Below are positions 8,910 to 64,000 of a stretch of 64,000 nt of DNA, in pieces. Origin of the DNA: Amycolatopsis bullii (lineage in GTDB: Bacteria > Actinomycetota > Actinomycetes > Mycobacteriales > Pseudonocardiaceae). The DNA lies in the NCBI RefSeq assembly GCF_014654205.1, contig NZ_BNAW01000043.1, positions 1-64,000 on the forward strand. The letters run 5' to 3'. Numbering within the stretch: the first letter of the stretch is position 1; each line of letters starts with the position of its first letter. Position numbers and translations under genes: made by a program. The notes under the pieces are model-generated. The model was not told the DNA's origin. It searched no databases and worked only from the letters and a program-made list of their open reading frames with translations.

Positions 8910-8977
8910 CCTCGGTGACTCCTTCTCGTTCGAGCTCGTACGGCAGTGCTCTCTTCGGCTCACGCTAAAAGTGCGGT

Positions 8978-9015
8978 GTTGCCCGACCGTCACCCGTATG
9001 TTTCGCGGGTGTTAA
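8978..9015 (-). promoter_or_regulatory. GlnR box upstream of glnA
   Basis: Read on the minus strand, the order is TTAAC, six bases, GAAAC, six bases, GTGAC, six bases, GCAAC. This fits two consecutive copies of the actinobacterial GlnR consensus gTnAc-n6-GaAAc with the proper 6-bp spacings; only the first base of unit 1 and one base of the last block deviate. A TAGCGT-like -10 lies between the box and the gene. The inference is direct GlnR control of glnA under nitrogen limitation. Confidence 0.8.
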
Positions 9016-9082
9016 CGGGTGGTCGATATCGGGTATCCGACCAGGTCGGATGTGCTCCACGCCACCGGCATACCCTGGACGG

Positions 9083-9568
9083 GTGGCGAGATGGACCGGT
9101 GAATGGCTCCCCGGCACCGGCGACGGCGGTCAGGGCACTGATCAGCACGGCTCGCGGTGGCCGGGCGAGAAGTTCGGTTTGCCCGAATCGGGCGTCGGCT
9201 CGGCGGCGAGCGGAGGCGCGCGACTGCTCGGACTGATCGTCGACCTCGTGGTCGCGGCCCTGGTCACGGCGATCTTCCTGCACCCCAGCCTGCAGGACCC
9301 GGCCGCGATGCAGCAGTTCAACCTCTGGTCCGGCGGCGTGTGGGCGATCATCTCGGTCATCTCGGCCGGGTTCTTCGGCTTCACGCCGGGGATGGCCGCG
9401 GTCGGCATCCGCGTCGCGCGGTTGGACGGCGCCGCGCTGGTCGGCCCGCTGCGCGCGCTGGTCCGGGCCGCGCTGACGTTCGTGCTGATCCCGGCGGCGG
9501 TCCGCAACGCCGACGGCCGCAGCTGGCTCGACCGGCTCACCGGCACGGTGGTCATCCGGATGCGCTGA
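9083..9568 (+). CDS. RDD family membrane protein
   Basis: A 161-residue small membrane protein with three hydrophobic segments (around LLGLIVDLVVAALVTAIFL, GVWAIISVISAGFFGF and ALVRAALTFVLIPAAV). Membrane-proximal charged motifs match the RDD family (GARLLGLIVDL, then PGMAAVGIRVARLDG). The GTG at 9083 was chosen because the upstream codons overlap the glnA control region. Divergent from glnA, as in Mycobacterium tuberculosis (Rv2219A/Rv2220). Function unknown; some RDD proteins are ion antiporters. Confidence 0.87.
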   Translation: MARWTGEWLPGTGDGGQGTDQHGSRWPGEKFGLPESGVGSAASGGARLLGLIVDLVVAALVTAIFLHPSLQDPAAMQQFNLWSGGVWAIISVISAGFFGFTPGMAAVGIRVARLDGAALVGPLRALVRAALTFVLIPAAVRNADGRSWLDRLTGTVVIRMR

Positions 9569-9628
9569 GGACCGCCGGTCGTGAGGGCCGCCGCCCGCGC
9601 CGCCGTCGCCCGGCGCCGCGTGAGCGTG

Positions 9629-9665
9629 AAAAGGCCCCCGCCCGGAATCCCGGCGGGGGCCTTTC
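9629..9665. terminator. Bidirectional terminator between RDD and DUF4191 genes
   Basis: A perfect hairpin has arms AAAGGCCCCCGCC and GGCGGGGGCCTTT around a 9-base loop, flanked by A and T runs, so it can act on both of the convergent genes. Confidence 0.88.
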
Positions 9666-9676
9666 TCGTGCGGGGG

Positions 9677-10405
9677 TCAGCGGCGGCGGATCGTCCGCTG
9701 GACGTTGCGCATCTTCGCGCCGGCCGGCATCGGGCCCTTGGGCAGCGCCGCGCCGCGGTTGCCGAGGGCAGCCAGCTTCGCTTCGAGTGCGTCGACCTGG
9801 GCCGGCTTGAGGTTGCGGGGCAACTTCATCAGGTAGCCCTGGAGCTTCTTCAGCGGGAGCTGGCCCTCGTCGTGGCCGATCGTCACGTCGTAGATCGGCG
9901 TGTCGCCGATCAGGCGGGAGACACGCTTCTTCTCCTGGGCGAGCAGCGTCTTCACCCGGTGCGGCGCGCCTTCGGCGACCAGCACCACGCCGGGACCGCC
10001 GAGGACCCGGTGCACCGCGTCGAGCTGGGTGGTCGCCGCGACGGTCGGCGTCACCTTCCAGCGGCCGCGCAGGTTCTCCAGCGCCCACGCCGCCGCGCCG
10101 GGCTGGCCGTCGGCCTTCGAATAGACGGTCTTCTGGACGCGCCGGCCGAAGATGATCATGGCGGCCAGGCCGCCCAGGATCAGGCCCAGCGGCAGCAGCA
10201 CCCACTGCATGTCGAAGAAGAACCCGATCCCGAACAGGACGCCGGCCACGACGATGATCGCGCCGACCATCCACGGGATGAGCCAAGGGTCTTCCTTGCG
10301 CTGCATCTTGAAGGCCTCGAAGAGCTGGCCACGGCGGGCCTTGCTCGCCGCGCGCTTCTCCTTCTTGGCCTGCTTGGCCGCTTCCTTGTCCTGCTTACCC
10401 GCCAT
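9677..10405 (-). CDS. DUF4191 domain membrane protein
   Basis: A 242-residue protein starting with a very Lys/Ala-rich cytoplasmic segment ([18 protein letters not shown]). Two adjacent transmembrane helices (about 50-70 and 75-95) follow, then a soluble domain containing [21 protein letters not shown] and IYDVTIG. This matches the DUF4191 family (M. tuberculosis Rv2219 position). The start was set at ATG 10405 because the upstream reading is basic low-complexity without a ribosome site. Convergent with the RDD gene. Function unknown. Confidence 0.87.
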
Positions 10406-10470
10406 ATGACCAGGATACGGCCGCGTGCCCCTGCCCCGTTTCCCCGTCCCCCTCTGCGAGGATGCCGGAC

Positions 10471-12558
10471 GTGACCGGCGTACTTTCACCCCAGAGCCCG
10501 AACCGACTGCTCGACGGTCTCGACCCCGAGCAGCGCGCCGCCGCCAGCGCCCCCCGGGGGCCGGTCTGCGTGCTCGCCGGAGCCGGCACGGGCAAGACCC
10601 GCACGATCACCCACCGGATCGCCCACCTCGTCCGGTCCGGGCACGTTTCCGCCGGTCAGGTCCTCGCCGTCACGTTCACGACGCGCGCGGCGGGGGAGAT
10701 GCGGACGCGGCTGCGCGGCCTCGGCGTCGACGCGGCGCAGGCGCTGACGTTCCACGCTGCCGCCCGCCGCCAGCTGCGCTACTTCTGGCCGCGCGTGGTC
10801 GGCGACCGGCCGTGGGACCTGCTGGAGAACAAGCTGCGGTACGTCGGCCAGGCCGCGAACCGGGCCAAGCTCGGTACCGAGGTCGAGGTCCTGCGCGACC
10901 TGGCGAGCGAGATCGAGTGGGCGAAGGCGTCGCTGATCAGCCCGGACGACTACCCCGCCGTCACCGCGCGCGCCCAGCGGGACATCCCGGCCCCGGCGGC
11001 GCAGGTCGCCGAGGTCTACCGGACGTACGAAGAGCTGAAGAACGCCGCGCAGGTGCTCGACTTCGACGACCTTCTGCTGCACACGACGGCGGTGCTCGAG
11101 GAGCACGGCACCGTCGCCGAGGAGTTCCGGGACCGCTACCGCTGCTTCGTCGTCGACGAGTACCAGGACGTCACGCCGCTGCAGCAGCGCCTGCTCGACG
11201 CGTGGCTCGGCGGCCGCGACGACCTGACCGTCGTCGGCGACGCCAACCAGACCATCTACTCCTTCGGCGGCGCGTCGCCGCGGCCGCTGCTGGAGTTCAC
11301 GCGGCGCTACCCCGACGCCACCGTCGTCCGCCTAGAGCGCGACTACCGGTCGACTCCCGAGGTCGTCGCGCTGGCCAACCGGGTGATCGGCGCGGCCAGG
11401 GGCCGGCCGGCGGGCTCGCGGCTGAAGCTGATCGGCCAGCGCCCGCCGGGGCCGGAGCCGCGCTTCGCCGAGTTCGACGACGAGGCGGTCGAGGCCGGCG
11501 CGGTCGCGCGCCGGGTGCGCGAGCTGCTCGACGGCGGCGTCTCGGCGAGCGAGATCGCGATCCTCTACCGGATCAACGCCCAGTCCGAGGCCTACGAATC
11601 GGCGCTGGCCGACGCCGGCATCCCGTACCTGGTCCGCGGCGGCGAGCGGTTCTTCAACCGGACGGAGGTCCGGCAGGCGATGTCCGCGCTGCGGGCGGCG
11701 AGCGGCGACGGCAGCTCCGACCTGGTCACGACGGTGCGTTCGGTGCTCGCGCGGGTTGGCCTCACCGAGTCGCCGCCGGCCGGTGGCGCGGCGAAGGAAC
11801 GCTGGGACGCGCTCCTGGCCATCGTCGAGCTGGCCGAGGAGCTGGCTTCGACCGTGGCCGACGCCGACCTGCCGCGGTTCTGCGCCGAGCTCGACCAGCG
11901 CGCCGCGGCCCAGCACCCGCCGACGGTCGAGGGCGTCACGCTGGCGTCGCTGCACGCGGCGAAGGGCCTCGAGTGGGACGCGGTGTTCCTCGTCGGCCTC
12001 TCCGAGGGCACGATGCCGATCCTGCACGCCGACGGCGACGAAGCGGCGATCGAGGAGGAGCGGCGGCTGTTCTACGTCGGCGTCACCCGGGCCCGCGAGC
12101 ACCTGTGGCTGTCCTGGGCGCTGGCCCGCACGCCGGGCGCGCGGCGCAACCGGCGGCGCAGCCGGTTCCTCTACGGCCTGGTCCCGGAGGACCACCCGGC
12201 CGCCCGGGTGGCCCGGTCGGCCCAGCAGAAGGCGGCTCCGGTGAAGACGGCGCGCTGCCGGCTCTGCGGTGGGCCGCTGCTGGAAACCCTCGACATCAAG
12301 CTGGGCCGTTGCGGGCGCTGCCCGTCCACAGTGGATGAGGGCTTGCTGGAGCGCCTGAAGTCGTGGCGCGCCGACCGGGCGCGCGAGCTGAAGGTGCCGG
12401 CCTTCGTCGTCTTCACGGACGCCACGCTGATGGCCATCGCCGAGCAGCGTCCGGCCGACGAGGCGGCGCTGGTGTCGATCTCCGGCATCGGCGCGACGAA
12501 GCTCGAGCGGTTCGGCGCCGAGATCCTCGGCGTCGTCCGGGCCTCGACGGGGTCTTGA
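10471..12558 (+). CDS. uvrD2: ATP-dependent DNA helicase UvrD2 (SF1, UvrD/PcrA type)
   Basis: A 695-residue superfamily 1 helicase for DNA repair. Walker A is AGAGTGKT near the N-terminus, motif II is VDEYQD, motif III is [15 protein letters not shown], and the C-terminal motor has [22 protein letters not shown] and [11 protein letters not shown] four-cysteine zinc-ribbon-like stretch (CRLCGG, then CGRCPS) precedes a C-terminal HRDC domain (about 615-685), the layout of actinobacterial UvrD2. GTG 10471 was preferred because a GAGG site lies nine bases before it; ATG 10462 would have the site abutting the start codon. Next to whiB7, as in mycobacteria. Confidence 0.95.
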
Positions 12559-59028: not shown

Positions 59029-59097
59029 TTCGGGCCGACCCCCGCGGGGGCGCCCCCCGTTTTCCACGCTACCGGAGGGCACCGACAATTCCGGATT
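59029..59097. repeat. Dispersed GC repeat, intergenic copy
   Basis: CCCCCGCGGGGGCGCCCCCCG, then TTTTCCACGCTACC, GGGCACCGACAATTCCGG, between the convergent TetR and ABC permease genes. It shares block order with the copy at 47582-47641 in hutF. The palindromic front half could also terminate transcription. Confidence 0.7.
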
Positions 59098-59108: not shown

Positions 59109-59894
59109 TCAGGCGTCCCGGCGGCGCAGGACCGCCGTCCCCGCCAGCAGTGCCCCCGCTGCCCAAGCCGCACAGATCAGCAGCCCCGCCCAAGGGGCAT
59201 ACGGCGCCGCCGTCATCGTGATCGGGTTGGGTTGGCCCGCCTCGACCATGGCGTTCACGCCCGCGATGCCCGGGAAGTACGGCATCGCCTCCGGCAGGCC
59301 CAGCGAGGCCACGATCAGCGGCAGCGGGACCAGCAGCACGATCACCGACACCAGCGTCCCGGCCGCGCTGCGCAACGCCCAGCCGATTCCCGTGCACAGC
59401 AAGCCCAGCAGCGCGAAATAGCCGCCCATGCCGGACGCCGTCGTGAAGCCCGCCTCGAACGACGTCGGCAGGCCGTGGCCGTTCATCACCGCGGTCGCCA
59501 GTGCCATTCCCGCGCACGACAGGAGCACGCCGTACGCGAACAGGACCGGTGCCAGCACCGCCGCCTTCGCCAGGACCACCCGGGGGCGGACCGGGGTCCA
59601 CAGCAGCGTCGACCGGATGCCCCCGCCCGCGTATTCGCTCGTCACGAACAGCGTGGCCAGCGCGATCACCGCGAACTGGGTCAGGTAGAAGCCGCCGCCC
59701 AGGGCGATCGTGTGGGCGCCCTGGGGCTGGTCGCCGATGCGCTGGGCGATCGCCGACAGCGTTCCGTAGAACAGCATCAGGGCCGTTCCCGCCACCAGGC
59801 ACCACCAGGTCGCCCGGACCGACCAGAACTTCGTCCACTCGGACGCCACCGCGCCCGGCAGGCCGCCGCCGCGCACTTCCACCGTCGCCGTCAT
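59109..59894 (-). CDS. ABC-2 type transporter permease
   Basis: A 261-residue membrane protein with six hydrophobic segments. The N-terminal GAVASEWTKFWSVRATWW and the EYAGGGIRSTLLWTPVRPRVV loop are typical of actinobacterial ABC-2 permeases for lipids, peptides or drugs. ATG overlaps the ATPase stop by four bases, so they form one transporter. It ends the five-gene minus-strand run that starts with the TPR gene. Confidence 0.9.
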   Translation of the reverse strand: MTATVEVRGGGLPGAVASEWTKFWSVRATWWCLVAGTALMLFYGTLSAIAQRIGDQPQGAHTIALGGGFYLTQFAVIALATLFVTSEYAGGGIRSTLLWTPVRPRVVLAKAAVLAPVLFAYGVLLSCAGMALATAVMNGHGLPTSFEAGFTTASGMGGYFALLGLLCTGIGWALRSAAGTLVSVIVLLVPLPLIVASLGLPEAMPYFPGIAGVNAMVEAGQPNPITMTAAPYAPWAGLLICAAWAAGALLAGTAVLRRRDA

Positions 59895-60805
59895 GCCGAA
59901 ACCCCGTATTCCACCGAAGAAGCCGTCAGTTCCATGTACGCCTGCTCGAGCGACGCCGTCCGCTCGGCGAGTCCGTGCACGCGGATCCCGAGCTCGTGCA
60001 CGAGGTCGCCGACACGGGTGACGGCGACGCCGTCCACCACCAGTTCGCCCGGCTCGCCCGGGTGCGTCAGGCCGCCTTCGGCACGCAGCCGCGCGTCCAG
60101 CGCGTCGCGCTCGCCGTCGGCCGGGACGCGGACCGAGACCGTGGTGCGGGAATTGCCCGCGATGAACTCCGCCACCGGGGCATCGGCCAGCAGCTTGCCC
60201 TTGCCGATCACCACCAGGTGGTCGGCGGTCAGCTGCATCTCGCTCATCAGGTGGCTGGAGACGAACACCGTCCGCCCCTCGGCCGCCAGCGACCGCATCA
60301 GCTGCCGCACCCAGCGGACGCCGTCCGGGTCGAGGCCGTTGACCGGCTCGTCGAACAGCAGCACCCCCGGGTCACCCAGCAGCGCGCCCGCGATGCCCAG
60401 CCGCTGTCCCATGCCGAGGGAGAACTGGCCGGCCCGTTTGCCGGCGACGTCGGACAGCCCGACCGTCGCCAGGACCTCCTCGACGCGGCTCGCCGCGATG
60501 CCGTTGCTGCGGGCCATGGCCAGCAGGTGCTTCCCGGCGCTGCGGCCCGGGTGCAGGGCCTTGGCGTCGAGCAGCGCCCCCACCTCGCGCAGCGGGTGCC
60601 GCAGCTCGGCGTACCGCTTCCCGCCGACCAGGACTTCACCCGCCTGCGGGTGGTCGAGCCCGACGGTCATCCGCATGGTCGTCGACTTCCCGGCCCCGTT
60701 GGGACCGAGGAAGCCGGTCACCTGGCCGGGCGCGACGTCGCAGGTGAGCGCGTCGACGACGGTTTTCTCCCCGTAGCGCTTGGTGAGTCCCCTGAGTGTG
60801 ATCAT
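59891..60805 (-). CDS. ABC transporter ATP-binding protein
   Basis: A 304-residue ABC ATPase of the DrrA/CcmA-like exporter type. Walker A GPNGAGKS (34-41), signature FSLGMGQRLGIAGALL, Walker B VLLFDEPVNGLD and switch His in FVSSHLMSEM. A C-terminal DUF4162-like region (about 215-304) follows. Lies 78 bp after the DUF4231 gene, same strand. Cargo unknown; a peptide product of the upstream radical SAM enzyme is one idea. Confidence 0.93.
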   Translation of the reverse strand: MITLRGLTKRYGEKTVVDALTCDVAPGQVTGFLGPNGAGKSTTMRMTVGLDHPQAGEVLVGGKRYAELRHPLREVGALLDAKALHPGRSAGKHLLAMARSNGIAASRVEEVLATVGLSDVAGKRAGQFSLGMGQRLGIAGALLGDPGVLLFDEPVNGLDPDGVRWVRQLMRSLAAEGRTVFVSSHLMSEMQLTADHLVVIGKGKLLADAPVAEFIAGNSRTTVSVRVPADGERDALDARLRAEGGLTHPGEPGELVVDGVAVTRVGDLVHELGIRVHGLAERTASLEQAYMELTASSVEYGVSA

Positions 60806-60883
60806 GCCTCGAAGTCTGCGGCCCGCGGGGGTGCGCGGGCATCGGACGACGGTCGCGGGCCGCCCCCGACTTTCGGCAGGGTT

Positions 60884-61309
60884 TCAGGTCCGGGGCTTCT
60901 CCTCGGCCAGCTTCACCCAGCTGTTCATCTCGCCCTGCTCGATGCGCGTGACCGCGCGGACGAGGGCTTCTTCGCGGGCCGCCGGATCGGCGTACGGTTC
61001 CGCGCCGATGTGGTAGAGCCGCCGCTCGGCGTCGATCGCTTCGCGGGCGGCGCTGTACCGGAGGTAGTTGTCCTGCCAGTGGAACACCGACCGCAGGCCC
61101 GAACCGACGACGAGCACCGCGCCGATGACGGCCAGCACCACCGTGCTCGCCGGGTTGATCGCGGCGATCACGGGAATGCTGGCGGACAACGCGATCATCG
61201 CCACCTCGGTCGCCTTGTACCACCGCCGCGAGCGGATGGCGTGCGACCGGTACCAGTCGTAGGAGGCGTCGGCCAGCGCCAGTCCCGGCCCGGGAACCCC
61301 CTCGCCCAT
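60884..61309 (-). CDS. DUF4231 (SLATT-like) two-TM protein
   Basis: A 141-residue protein. Residues 15-32 are basic and aromatic (YDWYRSHAIRSRRWYK), then two close transmembrane helices (about 34-50 and 55-72), then a helical tail with W78 and the pattern YLRYSAAREAIDAERRLYHI and IEQGEMNSWVKLAEE. This is the layout of DUF4231, which belongs with SLATT domains, small membrane effectors seen in prokaryotic conflict systems. It starts 13 bp after the radical SAM gene, so both are likely co-expressed. Confidence 0.83.
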   Translation of the reverse strand: MGEGVPGPGLALADASYDWYRSHAIRSRRWYKATEVAMIALSASIPVIAAINPASTVVLAVIGAVLVVGSGLRSVFHWQDNYLRYSAAREAIDAERRLYHIGAEPYADPAAREEALVRAVTRIEQGEMNSWVKLAEEKPRT

Positions 61310-61322
61310 CGGGACCTCCCTG

Positions 61323-62792
61323 TCAGCGGGCCGCGTACTTCAGCAGCCGCAATCCTTCCAGACGCACGGCTTGCGGGTAAATGGTCCGGTAGATGGCGCA
61401 GTTCGGCGAGCGGACGTCGAACCGGCCGGTCGCCCGGAAGGTGGCCGCCGCGCACCCGCCGGAACACCAGTGGCGCCACGTGCAGTCGCGGCAACCCTGC
61501 TTGTCCTCGACGAGCAGGTTCCGGATTCCGCGCGGGTCGGTGCGGACGGCAAGCACCGGGTCGGTGGTCCGGACGTCGCCGATGGTGTCGGAGATTTCCA
61601 TGTGGCACTTCGCGATCTGCCCGCGCTGGTCGATCACGACGTAGTCGTCGCCGACGCCGCAGGCGCGGCGGCGGGGCGCGAGCAGCTGGCCCCGGTCCAG
61701 CACGCAGCCGAGGACGCTCCACCGCGGCAGGTTCTCTTCGATCTCCGCGAACGCCGATTCCAGGCCCGCGAGCATCGCCTGCTCTTCGAAGCGGAGGTCG
61801 GCCACGGCGGCCGAGCAGTCGTTGTCCCGGAAGAAGTTGAAGCTGAACGTGAGGTCCCGCTCGAGCGCGAACCGGACGACCGGGCCGATCGCGTCGACGT
61901 TCCGGCTCGTGATGGTGATCGAGATGTGCGGCCGCACCCCGGCCTCGAGCAGCCGTCCGATCGTGCGGACCACGAGGTGCGACGAGCGGTGCCCGCCCAC
62001 CGTGGGGCGCTGGGCGTCGTGCGCCTCCCCGATGCCGTCGAGGGAGATCATCACCCCGATGCCGTGCTCGGTGAGGGCGGCCGCCAGGCGCCGGTTGATC
62101 GCGACGCCGTTGCTGAGCAGCACCGCGCTCAGCGTCAACCCGGCCGCGTCGCACCGACCCCGGGCGTACTGGTGCAGATCCAGCAGGACGTCGGCGTTGA
62201 GGCTCGCCTCGCCGCCCGCGTATTTGAGGCGCAGTGCGGAAAAACCGTTCCGGACCGCCGAGCGGACGAGCGCGTCCACGGAATCCCGGCCGGTGTCCCG
62301 GGTCATGCCTTCGTCGGACTTGCTGACGTAGCAGTAGGGACACTTGAGGTTGCACTTGTTCGTGACGTGCAGCCAGGCGGTCAGCTGCCGGCTTTCGGCG
62401 AACCGGGGATCCGGCGGCGCGCCCGCCGGGTGCAGCAGATCGTGCGAGAAAAGGTGACGCGCGGCCGCTTCCGCCGATTCGTCCGCCGCGAGCGCACCGA
62501 TCTCCCGCGGAGTGGAGAAAAGCTCGAGAAGGGCGTGGGCGGCCCGGTTGACGATCAGCACCCCGCCGTTCCCGTCCGGGTTGAACAATGCGGTGTGCTC
62601 GCCGTCGACCGGGCATTCCACGATCTCCCGCGCGCGCACCAGCGGGCCGGCGGGCAATCCGGCCGCCGTCCGGACGGCACTCCCGCCGCTCGGCGGGCAG
62701 GCGCAGTCCTCGCAGCTGTGGACGAGCAGCTCGTGCGCTCCCGGAACGTCCGAACCGGACAGTGCCACAGCGCGCTGGTCGCTGGAATGCAT
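61323..62792 (-). CDS. Radical SAM/SPASM enzyme with PqqD-like N-terminal domain
   Basis: A 489-residue radical SAM enzyme. The [4Fe-4S]/SAM motif is CNLKCPYC (Cys147, Cys151, Cys154) after LHVTNK; the GGE-like motif is KYAGGEASLN. The C-terminal SPASM region has Cys434, Cys437, Cys443, Cys447 and Cys465 (CRDCTWRHWCSGGC, SPNC) for auxiliary clusters. Residues about 60-122 (ALFNPDGNGGVLIVNRAAHALLELF) resemble PqqD, a peptide-recognition element. The N-terminus also holds CEDCAC. This is the architecture of RiPP maturases, but no precursor gene is visible nearby. Confidence 0.9.
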   Translation of the reverse strand: MHSSDQRAVALSGSDVPGAHELLVHSCEDCACPPSGGSAVRTAAGLPAGPLVRAREIVECPVDGEHTALFNPDGNGGVLIVNRAAHALLELFSTPREIGALAADESAEAAARHLFSHDLLHPAGAPPDPRFAESRQLTAWLHVTNKCNLKCPYCYVSKSDEGMTRDTGRDSVDALVRSAVRNGFSALRLKYAGGEASLNADVLLDLHQYARGRCDAAGLTLSAVLLSNGVAINRRLAAALTEHGIGVMISLDGIGEAHDAQRPTVGGHRSSHLVVRTIGRLLEAGVRPHISITITSRNVDAIGPVVRFALERDLTFSFNFFRDNDCSAAVADLRFEEQAMLAGLESAFAEIEENLPRWSVLGCVLDRGQLLAPRRRACGVGDDYVVIDQRGQIAKCHMEISDTIGDVRTTDPVLAVRTDPRGIRNLLVEDKQGCRDCTWRHWCSGGCAAATFRATGRFDVRSPNCAIYRTIYPQAVRLEGLRLLKYAAR

Positions 62793-62865
62793 CGCGGATC
62801 CCTCTCACTGGCCGGACGGCACCGAACACGCGGGTAGCTTTTGTACCGCCGGGAGGCGGCGGAGC

Positions 62866-64000
62866 TTAGTACAGTTGCTCCAGCCGAGCCAGTAAGGACG
62901 TCGAGCGGCTCTTCGTGGACCAGTCCTCCCGCAATCTTGCGTACCACCGCGCCTGCGTTTCGGTGCTCAGCCGGGAGAACAACTGGTGGAATCTTTCGAA
63001 CTCGCTGGCGATCGCGGCGGCACCGTGCGATCCCACGCGGCGGTCCGCCAGGGTGCGGAAGCCGAGGGAATAGTGCGTCAGCGCGACGTCGAGCGTCTCC
63101 GAGGTGTCACCGTCGAGGTTGTCGTGCAGGATCAGGTGGCCCTGCAGCAGATCCCAGCGCGCCTCGAGATCGGTGTAGTCGTATTCCTCGATCGCCCGCT
63201 CGATGTCCGCCACGCGCGATTTGATCAGGGCACGGTAGCGCGGCTCCCGGGTGCGGGTCCAGAGCTGGTACACCAGTTCCAGGTATTCGATGAGGCTGGC
63301 CGAGACGAACCAGCCGTCGGCGACCTTCGTGGCCTCGGCGATGGACTTGTCCAGGTAGTCGAGGCCCGCTTCGGGGTCGTCGTCGCCGAAGATCCGCCCG
63401 GCCCGGTTGAGCGCGGAGGGAAACCACCTGATCGCGTAGTCGCGGCAGATCTCCAGTGAGCGCAGGATGATCTGCTTGGCCTGGGTGACGGCGTCGGGCA
63501 GCAGCTCGTAGCCGGATTCGTGGGCCTGGAAGAGGCAGATGGCCTGTTCCTGGAGGATCATCCCGATCCACGGCCAGTTACGCAGCGTCGAAAAGCAGGT
63601 CTCCGCCTGGGCGTACGATTCCCACGCCAGGGTGAACTTGCGTTCGTAGCGGTAGATTTCGCCCGAGACGCTGTGGGAGACCGCGAGCTGGTGGTCCGAA
63701 CCCAGCCGCCGCCGCACGGCGATCGCGCTTTCGATGAGGTTGCGGGCGTCGTCGTACTGGCCGTGCAGCGCCTTGAGGTACGCCCAGTTCGCCTGGATGG
63801 AGGCGAGCTCCTCCCGGTCGGCGCTCGGACGGCCCGGCCCGACGACCGCGGCGATGACCTCGTAGGCCCGCTGGTAGTACTCGTCGGCCTGCTTCCACCG
63901 GCCGAGGTTCCTGGTGTAGTACCCGAGTTCCTTGTACGCCTGGGCCTGCCGGTGCTCGCGTTCCGGTGAGGGCAGCTCGCCCGCGTGCCGCAGGGCCAGG
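62866..64000 (-). CDS. TPR-repeat protein, partial (5' end outside the window)
   Basis: The C-terminal 378 residues of a larger protein, open to the window edge. The first part has regular tetratricopeptide repeats (AYKELGYYTRNLGRWKQADEY, NWAYLKALHGQYDDARNLIES, EIYRYERKFTLAWESYAQAE). A helical C-terminal domain with WYARLREDWSTKSRSTSLLARLEQLY closes it. Such tails often follow HTH, NB-ARC or other sensor modules, which would lie to the right. It is 73 bp upstream of the radical SAM gene on the same strand and may be its regulator. Confidence 0.87.
   Translation of the reverse strand, partial: LALRHAGELPSPEREHRQAQAYKELGYYTRNLGRWKQADEYYQRAYEVIAAVVGPGRPSADREELASIQANWAYLKALHGQYDDARNLIESAIAVRRRLGSDHQLAVSHSVSGEIYRYERKFTLAWESYAQAETCFSTLRNWPWIGMILQEQAICLFQAHESGYELLPDAVTQAKQIILRSLEICRDYAIRWFPSALNRAGRIFGDDDPEAGLDYLDKSIAEATKVADGWFVSASLIEYLELVYQLWTRTREPRYRALIKSRVADIERAIEEYDYTDLEARWDLLQGHLILHDNLDGDTSETLDVALTHYSLGFRTLADRRVGSHGAAAIASEFERFHQLFSRLSTETQARWYARLREDWSTKSRSTSLLARLEQLY

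Follow-up and report, generated by a model that had tools for sequence, protein, structure and literature searches.

In Amycolatopsis and soil-dwelling relatives, three adjoining genes, encoding a TIR-AAA protein of predicted immune type, an AAA-TPR protein and a radical SAM/SPASM enzyme, are well shown to form a unit, and this triad is mobile. The enzyme begins with a tail that carries an invariant cysteine-rich motif, and its sequence raises the somewhat doubtful possibility of a radical SAM maturase with a built-in substrate, whose cross-linked CEDCACP tail might act as internal ligand or safety catch of the mobile TIR/AAA-TPR unit. The literature searched contained no description of such a unit, in agreement with the initial annotation, which knew of no described system joining a radical SAM/SPASM enzyme to a DUF4231 protein.

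Locus layout and distribution of the triad

The window, a stretch of 64,000 nucleotides, ends with the five closely spaced minus-strand genes that the initial annotation had described, and their arrangement is confirmed. Extension of the contig, as had been suggested, completed the TPR gene (62866..64000 in the window, continuing to C43:65718, minus strand), which encodes a 950-aa AAA-TPR protein, a putative STAND-like NTPase. It also revealed a partner missing from the earlier list, a TIR-AAA gene (617 aa, C43:65718-67571) that precedes the AAA-TPR gene just beyond the window.

Searches of 390 genomes of the family found the enzyme (E 1e-30) and the TIR-AAA protein (TIR profile, E 1e-20) in the same eight, with the top three or four candidates scored per genome. 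These genome-wide searches used the enzyme and the TIR profile only, and the AAA-TPR gene was read at the resulting loci, where all three genes adjoin one another in 8/8 carriers, the intergenic distance ranging from −4 to 11 bp at one junction and from 24 to 73 bp at the other. The earlier idea of a TPR protein and a modifier in one unit therefore holds, the TPR gene being present at every one of the eight enzyme loci. In class-wide sampling, run twice on apparently one and the same sample, relatives of the enzyme at E 1e-40 were confined to its own genome (1/394). A contig scan with two patterns, which covers the N-terminal part of the enzyme only and says little on wider spread, returned one locus, in A. 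rifamycinica (G043). Pattern matches were present in 24 stretches of viral contigs, none of which was a relative; 175 plasmid records had generic radical SAM matches, and among the matches listed (30), all were below 60% identity and none spanned 80% of the query at a single location. Genes for caspase, TIR-TIR, TIR-TPR and NB-ARC-TPR proteins lie near the triad in other loci, an anecdotal observation with no background control.

Insertion site

In genomes G000 and G008, the unit is inserted between hrpB and a pair of ABC genes, a site that is empty in relatives; the order in G000 is hrpB, TIR-AAA, AAA-TPR, enzyme, SLATT and ABC pair. The inserted block comprises four genes, and its right junction lies at the SLATT stop codon. 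G043 combines an empty hrpB-ABC site with a copy of the unit elsewhere in its genome. For the empty-site test, hrpB was matched in 13 of the 14 same-genus relatives searched. An ABC ATPase homologue followed within 1.5 kb in 12 of these 13, as it did in G043, at 86-137 bp from the aligned hrpB end in six and at about 0.9-1.2 kb in six; the sole exception was L091, with no ABC homologue in that range. L092 and L093, from other families, gave hrpB hits and likewise no ABC homologue within 1.5 kb. In G043 and in the four empty-site loci that were read completely, the permease gene follows the ATPase gene. Because the pair follows hrpB in unit-free relatives and in G043, the ABC ATPase (59891..60805, minus strand) and permease (59109..59894, minus strand) belong to the chromosomal backbone, outside the unit. 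The ABC exporter that the initial annotation had counted among the members is thus ruled out as the unit's exporter. The region has a repeat motif close to each of its ends, which yielded no mechanism of mobility, and L009 contained no tRNA.

The last gene of the inserted block (60884..61309, minus strand), separated from the radical SAM gene by 13 bp, encodes an accessory SLATT/DUF4231 protein of 141 aa that satisfies the two-TM SLATT model NF033634 (86.1 bits, cut-off 41). Although part of the block, it stands beside only two of the eight triads, those of close relatives whose enzymes are 91% identical, and neither protein contains a cysteine. At the other six loci, tblastn (E 1e-3) found no DUF4231 homologue within the fetched stretches, which in G633 extend 2.5 kb after the enzyme. 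The linkage of the enzyme to DUF4231 and TPR genes that the initial annotation had put up for testing is therefore half upheld, with the TPR gene constant and the DUF4231 gene mostly missing. At E 1e-8, 21 of 80 genomes of the genus, G000 and G008 among them, encode a SLATT relative; nine of the 19 further loci were read and had no homologue of the remaining query genes nearby. The contexts of these nine differ, L070-L072 being alike and L075/L076 partly alike.

The proteins of the unit

The enzyme (489 aa, 61323..62792, minus strand) matches PF04055 with 48.2 bits (cut-off 29.5). The CxxxCxxC cysteines C147, C151 and C154 and the stretch G193-G194-E195 are invariant in 8/8, and so are cysteines 378, 396, 434, 437, 443, 447 and 465, which match the SPASM seven-cysteine pattern. 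Its fold matches include anSME, ChlB, TigE and CteB; by sequence, its top PDB match is CteB (5wgg, 3.3e-24), and the best NCBIfam model is PapB, whose 126.9 bits fall short of the equivalog cut-off of 340. The AlphaFold model of the whole enzyme, built with eight sequences, is weak (mean pLDDT 65.1). A second AlphaFold model, restricted to residues 1-132, reaches pLDDT 74-91 in blocks within residues 41-130, and this N-terminal domain matches TigE, MccB, PbtF, TbiB1 and PqqD (VIA). The enzyme is thus predicted to have a PqqD-like RiPP-recognition element at about residues 50-129 (62406..62645, minus strand), a domain that not every radical SAM/SPASM peptide maturase possesses. PADLOC pVip matched residues 141-300 (1.8e-13), and viperins were among the fold matches. 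A viperin-like nucleotide enzyme was nevertheless rejected, since peptide maturases match better in NCBIfam and the recognition and SPASM parts are present.

The AAA-TPR protein matches AAA_16 (36.0 bits, cut-off 32.6) and TPR_12 (41.6 bits, cut-off 30.1), while its scores against nSTAND models, 15.8 and 15.6 bits, are below the cut-offs of 34 and 27.7. The P-loop residues G43, K44 and T45, together with D149, are invariant in the eight homologues, and Cys132, 728 and 758 are also invariant. The TIR-AAA protein matches TIR_2 with 66.5 bits (cut-off 28). C71 and E74 are invariant in 8/8 and WCxxE is found in 6/8; E74 is presumably the catalytic Glu of the TIR domain, and the protein is probably an NAD-consuming or NAD-derived-signal enzyme. 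The NCBIfam Thoeris model ThcB4 weakly matches seven of the eight TIR proteins (best 4.1e-11), the one of this genome with 22.6 bits against a cut-off of 220. PADLOC matches reflect shared domains only, namely, the TIR of SAVED and Thoeris proteins, the radical SAM domain of viperin and a TM effector.

Precursor search and N-terminal tail

A precursor peptide gene near a radical SAM/SPASM maturase is usual but not universal. The 73-bp and 13-bp gaps contain none, which bears out the initial annotation, and no evident precursor is present within the four-gene block of G000 and G008. Stop-to-stop frames of at least 20 codons were compared (filter on, E 1e-3) in stretches of 2.3-2.6 kb upstream and 2.5-5 kb downstream, as available, and no short ORF common to divergent groups near the unit (up to 2.6 kb upstream and 5 kb downstream) was taken as a precursor. 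Eight matches linked divergent groups, none of them in more than two groups. They comprised long frames that belong to ABC, TIR or other genes or lie antisense to such genes, a 51-residue match (2.2e-5) that is antisense to the ABC gene, and a 53-residue match (7.9e-4).

The tail of the enzyme itself (residues 1-37, 62682..62792, minus strand) is a candidate built-in substrate or metal site. Its motif CEDCACP (residues 27-33) is invariant in 8/8 and is the sole invariant run of at least five within residues 1-132; in a permutation test, runs of at least seven had p about 0.001. Mean pairwise identity is 0.84 over residues 27-37 versus 0.45 in the next linker. The initial annotation had been right to single out the CEDCAC N terminus. 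When the eight genomes were searched with the tail, each returned its own copy of the enzyme, and every further hit had E 0.2 or worse. Both AlphaFold models give the tail low confidence (in the 1-132 model, residues 1-40 have pLDDT <50 except residue 11), and so lend no support to the tail docking in the enzyme's own recognition domain. VIA alignments to SkfB and SuiB start at model residues 33-35, within the low-confidence tail.

A model for the unit and its alternatives

We infer a conflict function of the unit and self-modification of its enzyme. Our model, which is tentative, is a mobile TIR/ATPase-TPR conflict unit of immune type in which the enzyme would cross-link its own tail as a ligand, lock or arming signal, with SLATT as an option. 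The AAA-TPR protein would sense a trigger via its TPRs and NTPase and then release or activate the TIR protein. The enzyme may cross-link the cysteines of CEDCACP in cis, with the tail held by the recognition domain, and the modified tail, kept or clipped, would set the state of the TIR/TPR pair; SLATT might be an optional membrane effector. The model leaves peptide release unexplained, because the unit has no protease or exporter of its own.

The tail Cys triplet could equally bind a metal. CEDCACP might be a metal or Fe-S ligand or a redox switch that, for example, completes an auxiliary cluster, the true substrate being encoded elsewhere; we give this a rather low probability. The Cys-rich motif does precede an enzyme with auxiliary clusters, and CteB, the closest PDB sequence, reportedly has an auxiliary cluster with an open site; however, the seven SPASM cysteines are already present. 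A substrate elsewhere would agree with the peptide recognition implied by the recognition domain, but the four-gene block is without an evident precursor and divergent carriers share no short ORF near the unit.

It is unlikely, although conceivable, that the enzyme modifies TIR-AAA or AAA-TPR and that the tail serves for docking within the complex. No further gene is shared along with the triad, and both partners offer invariant cysteines, Cys71 of TIR-AAA, three residues before the conserved Glu, and the three of AAA-TPR. On the other hand, where a radical SAM/SPASM enzyme has a recognition domain of this kind, the known substrates are, to our knowledge, short peptides.

A divergent FxSxx-type RiPP system with a small precursor at an unlinked place is improbable. 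FxSxx systems bring together radical SAM/SPASM, TPR and TIR-AP-ATPase genes (PMC7159879). The TIR proteins match the N-terminal FxsC model weakly in 8/8 (E up to 1, best 9.6e-6) and one of eight TPR proteins matches HaaT (0.0011). FxsB proteins over the cut-off are encoded elsewhere in two of the six carriers searched (G541, 441.8 bits; G480, 391.7 bits). However, the other four have none, the enzyme, with which FxsB matching in G000 at E 1e-5 is exhausted, reaches 44.9 bits with the FxsB model TIGR04269 against a cut-off of 370, and a common precursor ORF near the triad was not found.

The version that goes back to the initial annotation, in which the adjoining DUF4231 gene within the inserted block encodes the enzyme's target and the ABC pair exports the product, has a negligible probability, since SLATT, present at two of eight triads in close relatives and without cysteine, is ruled out as a dedicated substrate and the ABC pair is backbone.

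If the built-in-substrate reading is true, peptide chemistry would set the state of an NTPase-driven, NAD-acting effector, and the tail would represent a new route by which a radical SAM enzyme receives its substrate, as well as a novel means of arming an immune-type protein. From FxSxx loci, a link of radical SAM maturases to TIR/NTPase conflict systems has been predicted (PMC7159879). Here, that link comes down to three linked genes, near which no separate precursor was found, and is testable by one expression experiment.

Comparison with known systems

The enzyme shares the layout of RRE, radical SAM and SPASM parts with SCIFF/ranthipeptide maturases (CteB, TigE and PapB). In contrast to these, it is below the equivalog cut-offs, no precursor gene was found and an extra tail of ~45 residues precedes the aligned region, which starts at residue 54 for CteB and at 47 for TigE. 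If the enzyme is its own substrate, it would resemble the borosins, self-methylating enzymes to which the core peptide is fused, in having enzyme and core in one chain; enzyme and chemistry differ and the peptide is N-terminal here, so that this is an analogy only.

SLATT effectors of nucleotide-signal conflict systems resemble the SLATT protein, which is over the NF033634 cut-off and in one block with a TIR gene, a combination described for GAP1 systems (PMC7159879); here, however, it is accessory (2/8 loci). A parallel in gene content is with the FxSxx-COOH systems (PMC7159879) of actinobacteria, in which a radical SAM/SPASM enzyme likewise stands beside TIR- and TPR-containing NTPases. In contrast to these, the unit has no FxSxx precursor that we could find and the four genes of its inserted block include no evident vWA/MoxR core or zincin peptidase, and it carries the tail motif CEDCACP in place of a separate peptide.

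Results

When contig C43 of the 9.38-Mb A. bullii genome was read beyond the window to position 74999 of 83497, the TPR gene at which the initial annotation had broken off proved to encode a 950-aa AAA-TPR protein, preceded by a gene for a 617-aa TIR-AAA protein. The five-gene run described there (59109 to 64000) was confirmed, and its intergenic gap sizes were exact on re-measurement. All genes lie on the minus strand and are transcribed in the order hrpB, TIR-AAA, AAA-TPR, radical SAM enzyme, SLATT/DUF4231, ABC ATPase, and permease. According to Pfam and NCBIfam models with their cut-offs, the first gene encodes the helicase HrpB (TIGR01970, 767 bits; cut-off, 546). Matches above the cut-offs were likewise obtained for TIR-AAA (65718 to 67571; TIR_2, 66.5 bits), AAA-TPR (62866 to 65718; AAA_16, 36.0 bits, and TPR_12, 41.6 bits), the 489-aa enzyme (61323 to 62792; Radical_SAM, 48.2 bits), and the 141-aa SLATT protein (60884 to 61309; DUF4231, 61.6 bits, and SLATT_1, 86.1 bits).

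The enzyme was found in 3 of 80 genomes of the genus and TIR-AAA in the identical three; within the family, both occur in the same 8 of 390 genomes from four genera, TIR-AAA having been located by profile search. TIR-AAA, AAA-TPR, and the enzyme adjoin in that order at all eight loci. Class-wide samples (394 genomes) yielded nothing beyond A. bullii itself. Among the carriers, the enzyme is the best-conserved member (60 to 91% identity to the protein of the window; 67% in the same-genus genome G043), followed by AAA-TPR (49 to 89%) and TIR-AAA (36 to 92%). We are highly confident of the unit and its boundaries. The expected link of radical SAM and DUF4231 genes was seen at only two of eight loci, in A. 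bullii (G000) and the carrier G008 (judged on fetched stretches), whereas the TPR gene is linked at every one.

In relatives free of the unit, the ABC pair follows hrpB, 98 to 124 bp from its aligned end at the four fully read loci, and an ABC homolog lies within 1.5 kb past hrpB in 12 of 13 same-genus loci. Hence, the ABC exporter, previously counted as a member, belongs to the chromosomal backbone. Between the hrpB stop codon and the stretch CCTGCCGAAAGTCGGGG preceding the ABC gene, G000 and G008 carry a block that runs from TIR-AAA to SLATT (about 6.9 kb long in G000) and ends on the right with the SLATT stop codon; four genes fill it, none of them an integrase or transposase. In G043 this site is empty (104 bp) and the triad is located elsewhere, and thus the unit was inserted at different places. 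Six Amycolatopsis relatives (L085 to L090) carry some 0.9 to 1.2 kb of other sequence at the site occupied in G000 and G008; the gap between hrpB and the ABC gene is possibly a recurrent insertion site. Just past the permease gene lies a dispersed repeat of about 54 bp (59041 to 59094) with at least 25 further places in the genome (77 to 98% identity; 40 of 921 candidates scored), and the core of this repeat, CGGTNCCCTNCGGTANCGTGGAA, is found again ahead of TIR-AAA in both G000 and G008.

The view that the gaps hold no precursor gene was borne out: only 24 to 73 bp precede the enzyme across the eight loci, and no short product common to divergent groups was found among frames of at least 20 codons, with as much as 2.6 kb of upstream and 5 kb of downstream sequence covered. 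Eight cross-group matches emerged from the comparison of frames near the triad, none of which was taken as a precursor. The N-terminal tail of the enzyme (residues 1 to 37, with CEDCACP at 27 to 33), searched against the eight whole carrier genomes, retrieved the enzyme in each, all other matches having E values of 0.2 or worse. Directly upstream of TIR-AAA is a 15-codon ORF (L009, 12569 to 12616, minus strand; 14 codons in G008), which follows a purine-rich, ribosome-binding-like stretch and whose stop codon overlaps the TIR-AAA GTG start; its first seven codons are identical between G000 and G008, and it was not seen in the other six carriers.

At other triad loci, neighbor genes were noted as anecdotal observations. 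In G622 (L027), a caspase-like protein is encoded about 1.7 kb ahead of the triad (59 to 1024), and 94 bp past the triad comes the gene for an HTH-NB-ARC-TPR protein (8952 to 11276), for which G633 has a 93% identical frame. G633 (L028) has a separate TIR-TIR gene (about 1164 to 2001; TIR_2, 145.9 bits over two stretches) some 0.3 kb upstream of TIR-AAA, and in G480 a 960-aa TIR-TPR frame (L025, 11877 to 14759), similar to a TIR frame in G482, follows the triad at a distance of about 2.8 kb.

Discussion

In sum, our data show a mobile unit with a probable, though by no means assured, function in conflict, which matches its domain make-up, patchy spread (8/390), insertion history, and neighbor genes in other loci. 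In our model, AAA-TPR would sense a trigger and activate TIR-AAA. Glu74 of TIR-AAA, which we take to be the residue of NAD-directed TIR activity, is invariant in all eight proteins (WCxxE in six), and therefore such activity is likely. In the boldest step, the enzyme would cross-link its own CEDCACP tail, which might then serve as ligand or lock of the TIR-AAA/AAA-TPR pair; we regard this self-modification as doubtful. Where present, SLATT may supply a membrane effector. Since the whole can be no likelier than its weakest step, a mobile conflict unit with a self-modified tail remains a tentative explanation. The earlier idea of a sensor, modifier, and membrane effector holds in part: a new TIR/NTPase-coupled radical SAM unit stands, but the ABC pair and, at most loci, SLATT fall outside it.

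Actinobacterial peptide-processing systems have been described in which an FxSxx precursor and a zincin peptidase are joined by a radical SAM/SPASM enzyme and a TPR-bearing TIR-AP-ATPase (PMC7159879), and by analogy the triad could work as a stripped version of them. However, the enzyme of the window fails the FxsB model (44.9 bits; cut-off, 370), and the FxsC and HaaT models match proteins of the unit only weakly. Of six carriers searched, G541 (441.8 bits) and G480 (391.7 bits) encode a true FxsB at another place in their genomes; none of the other four has one above the cut-off. The Thoeris model ThcB4 weakly matches seven of the eight TIR proteins, staying below the cut-off for that of the window (22.6 versus 220 bits). 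No description of the triad was recognized in searches of open-access literature, and the unit appears to be a novel form of the TIR/NTPase conflict systems that are coupled to radical SAM enzymes.
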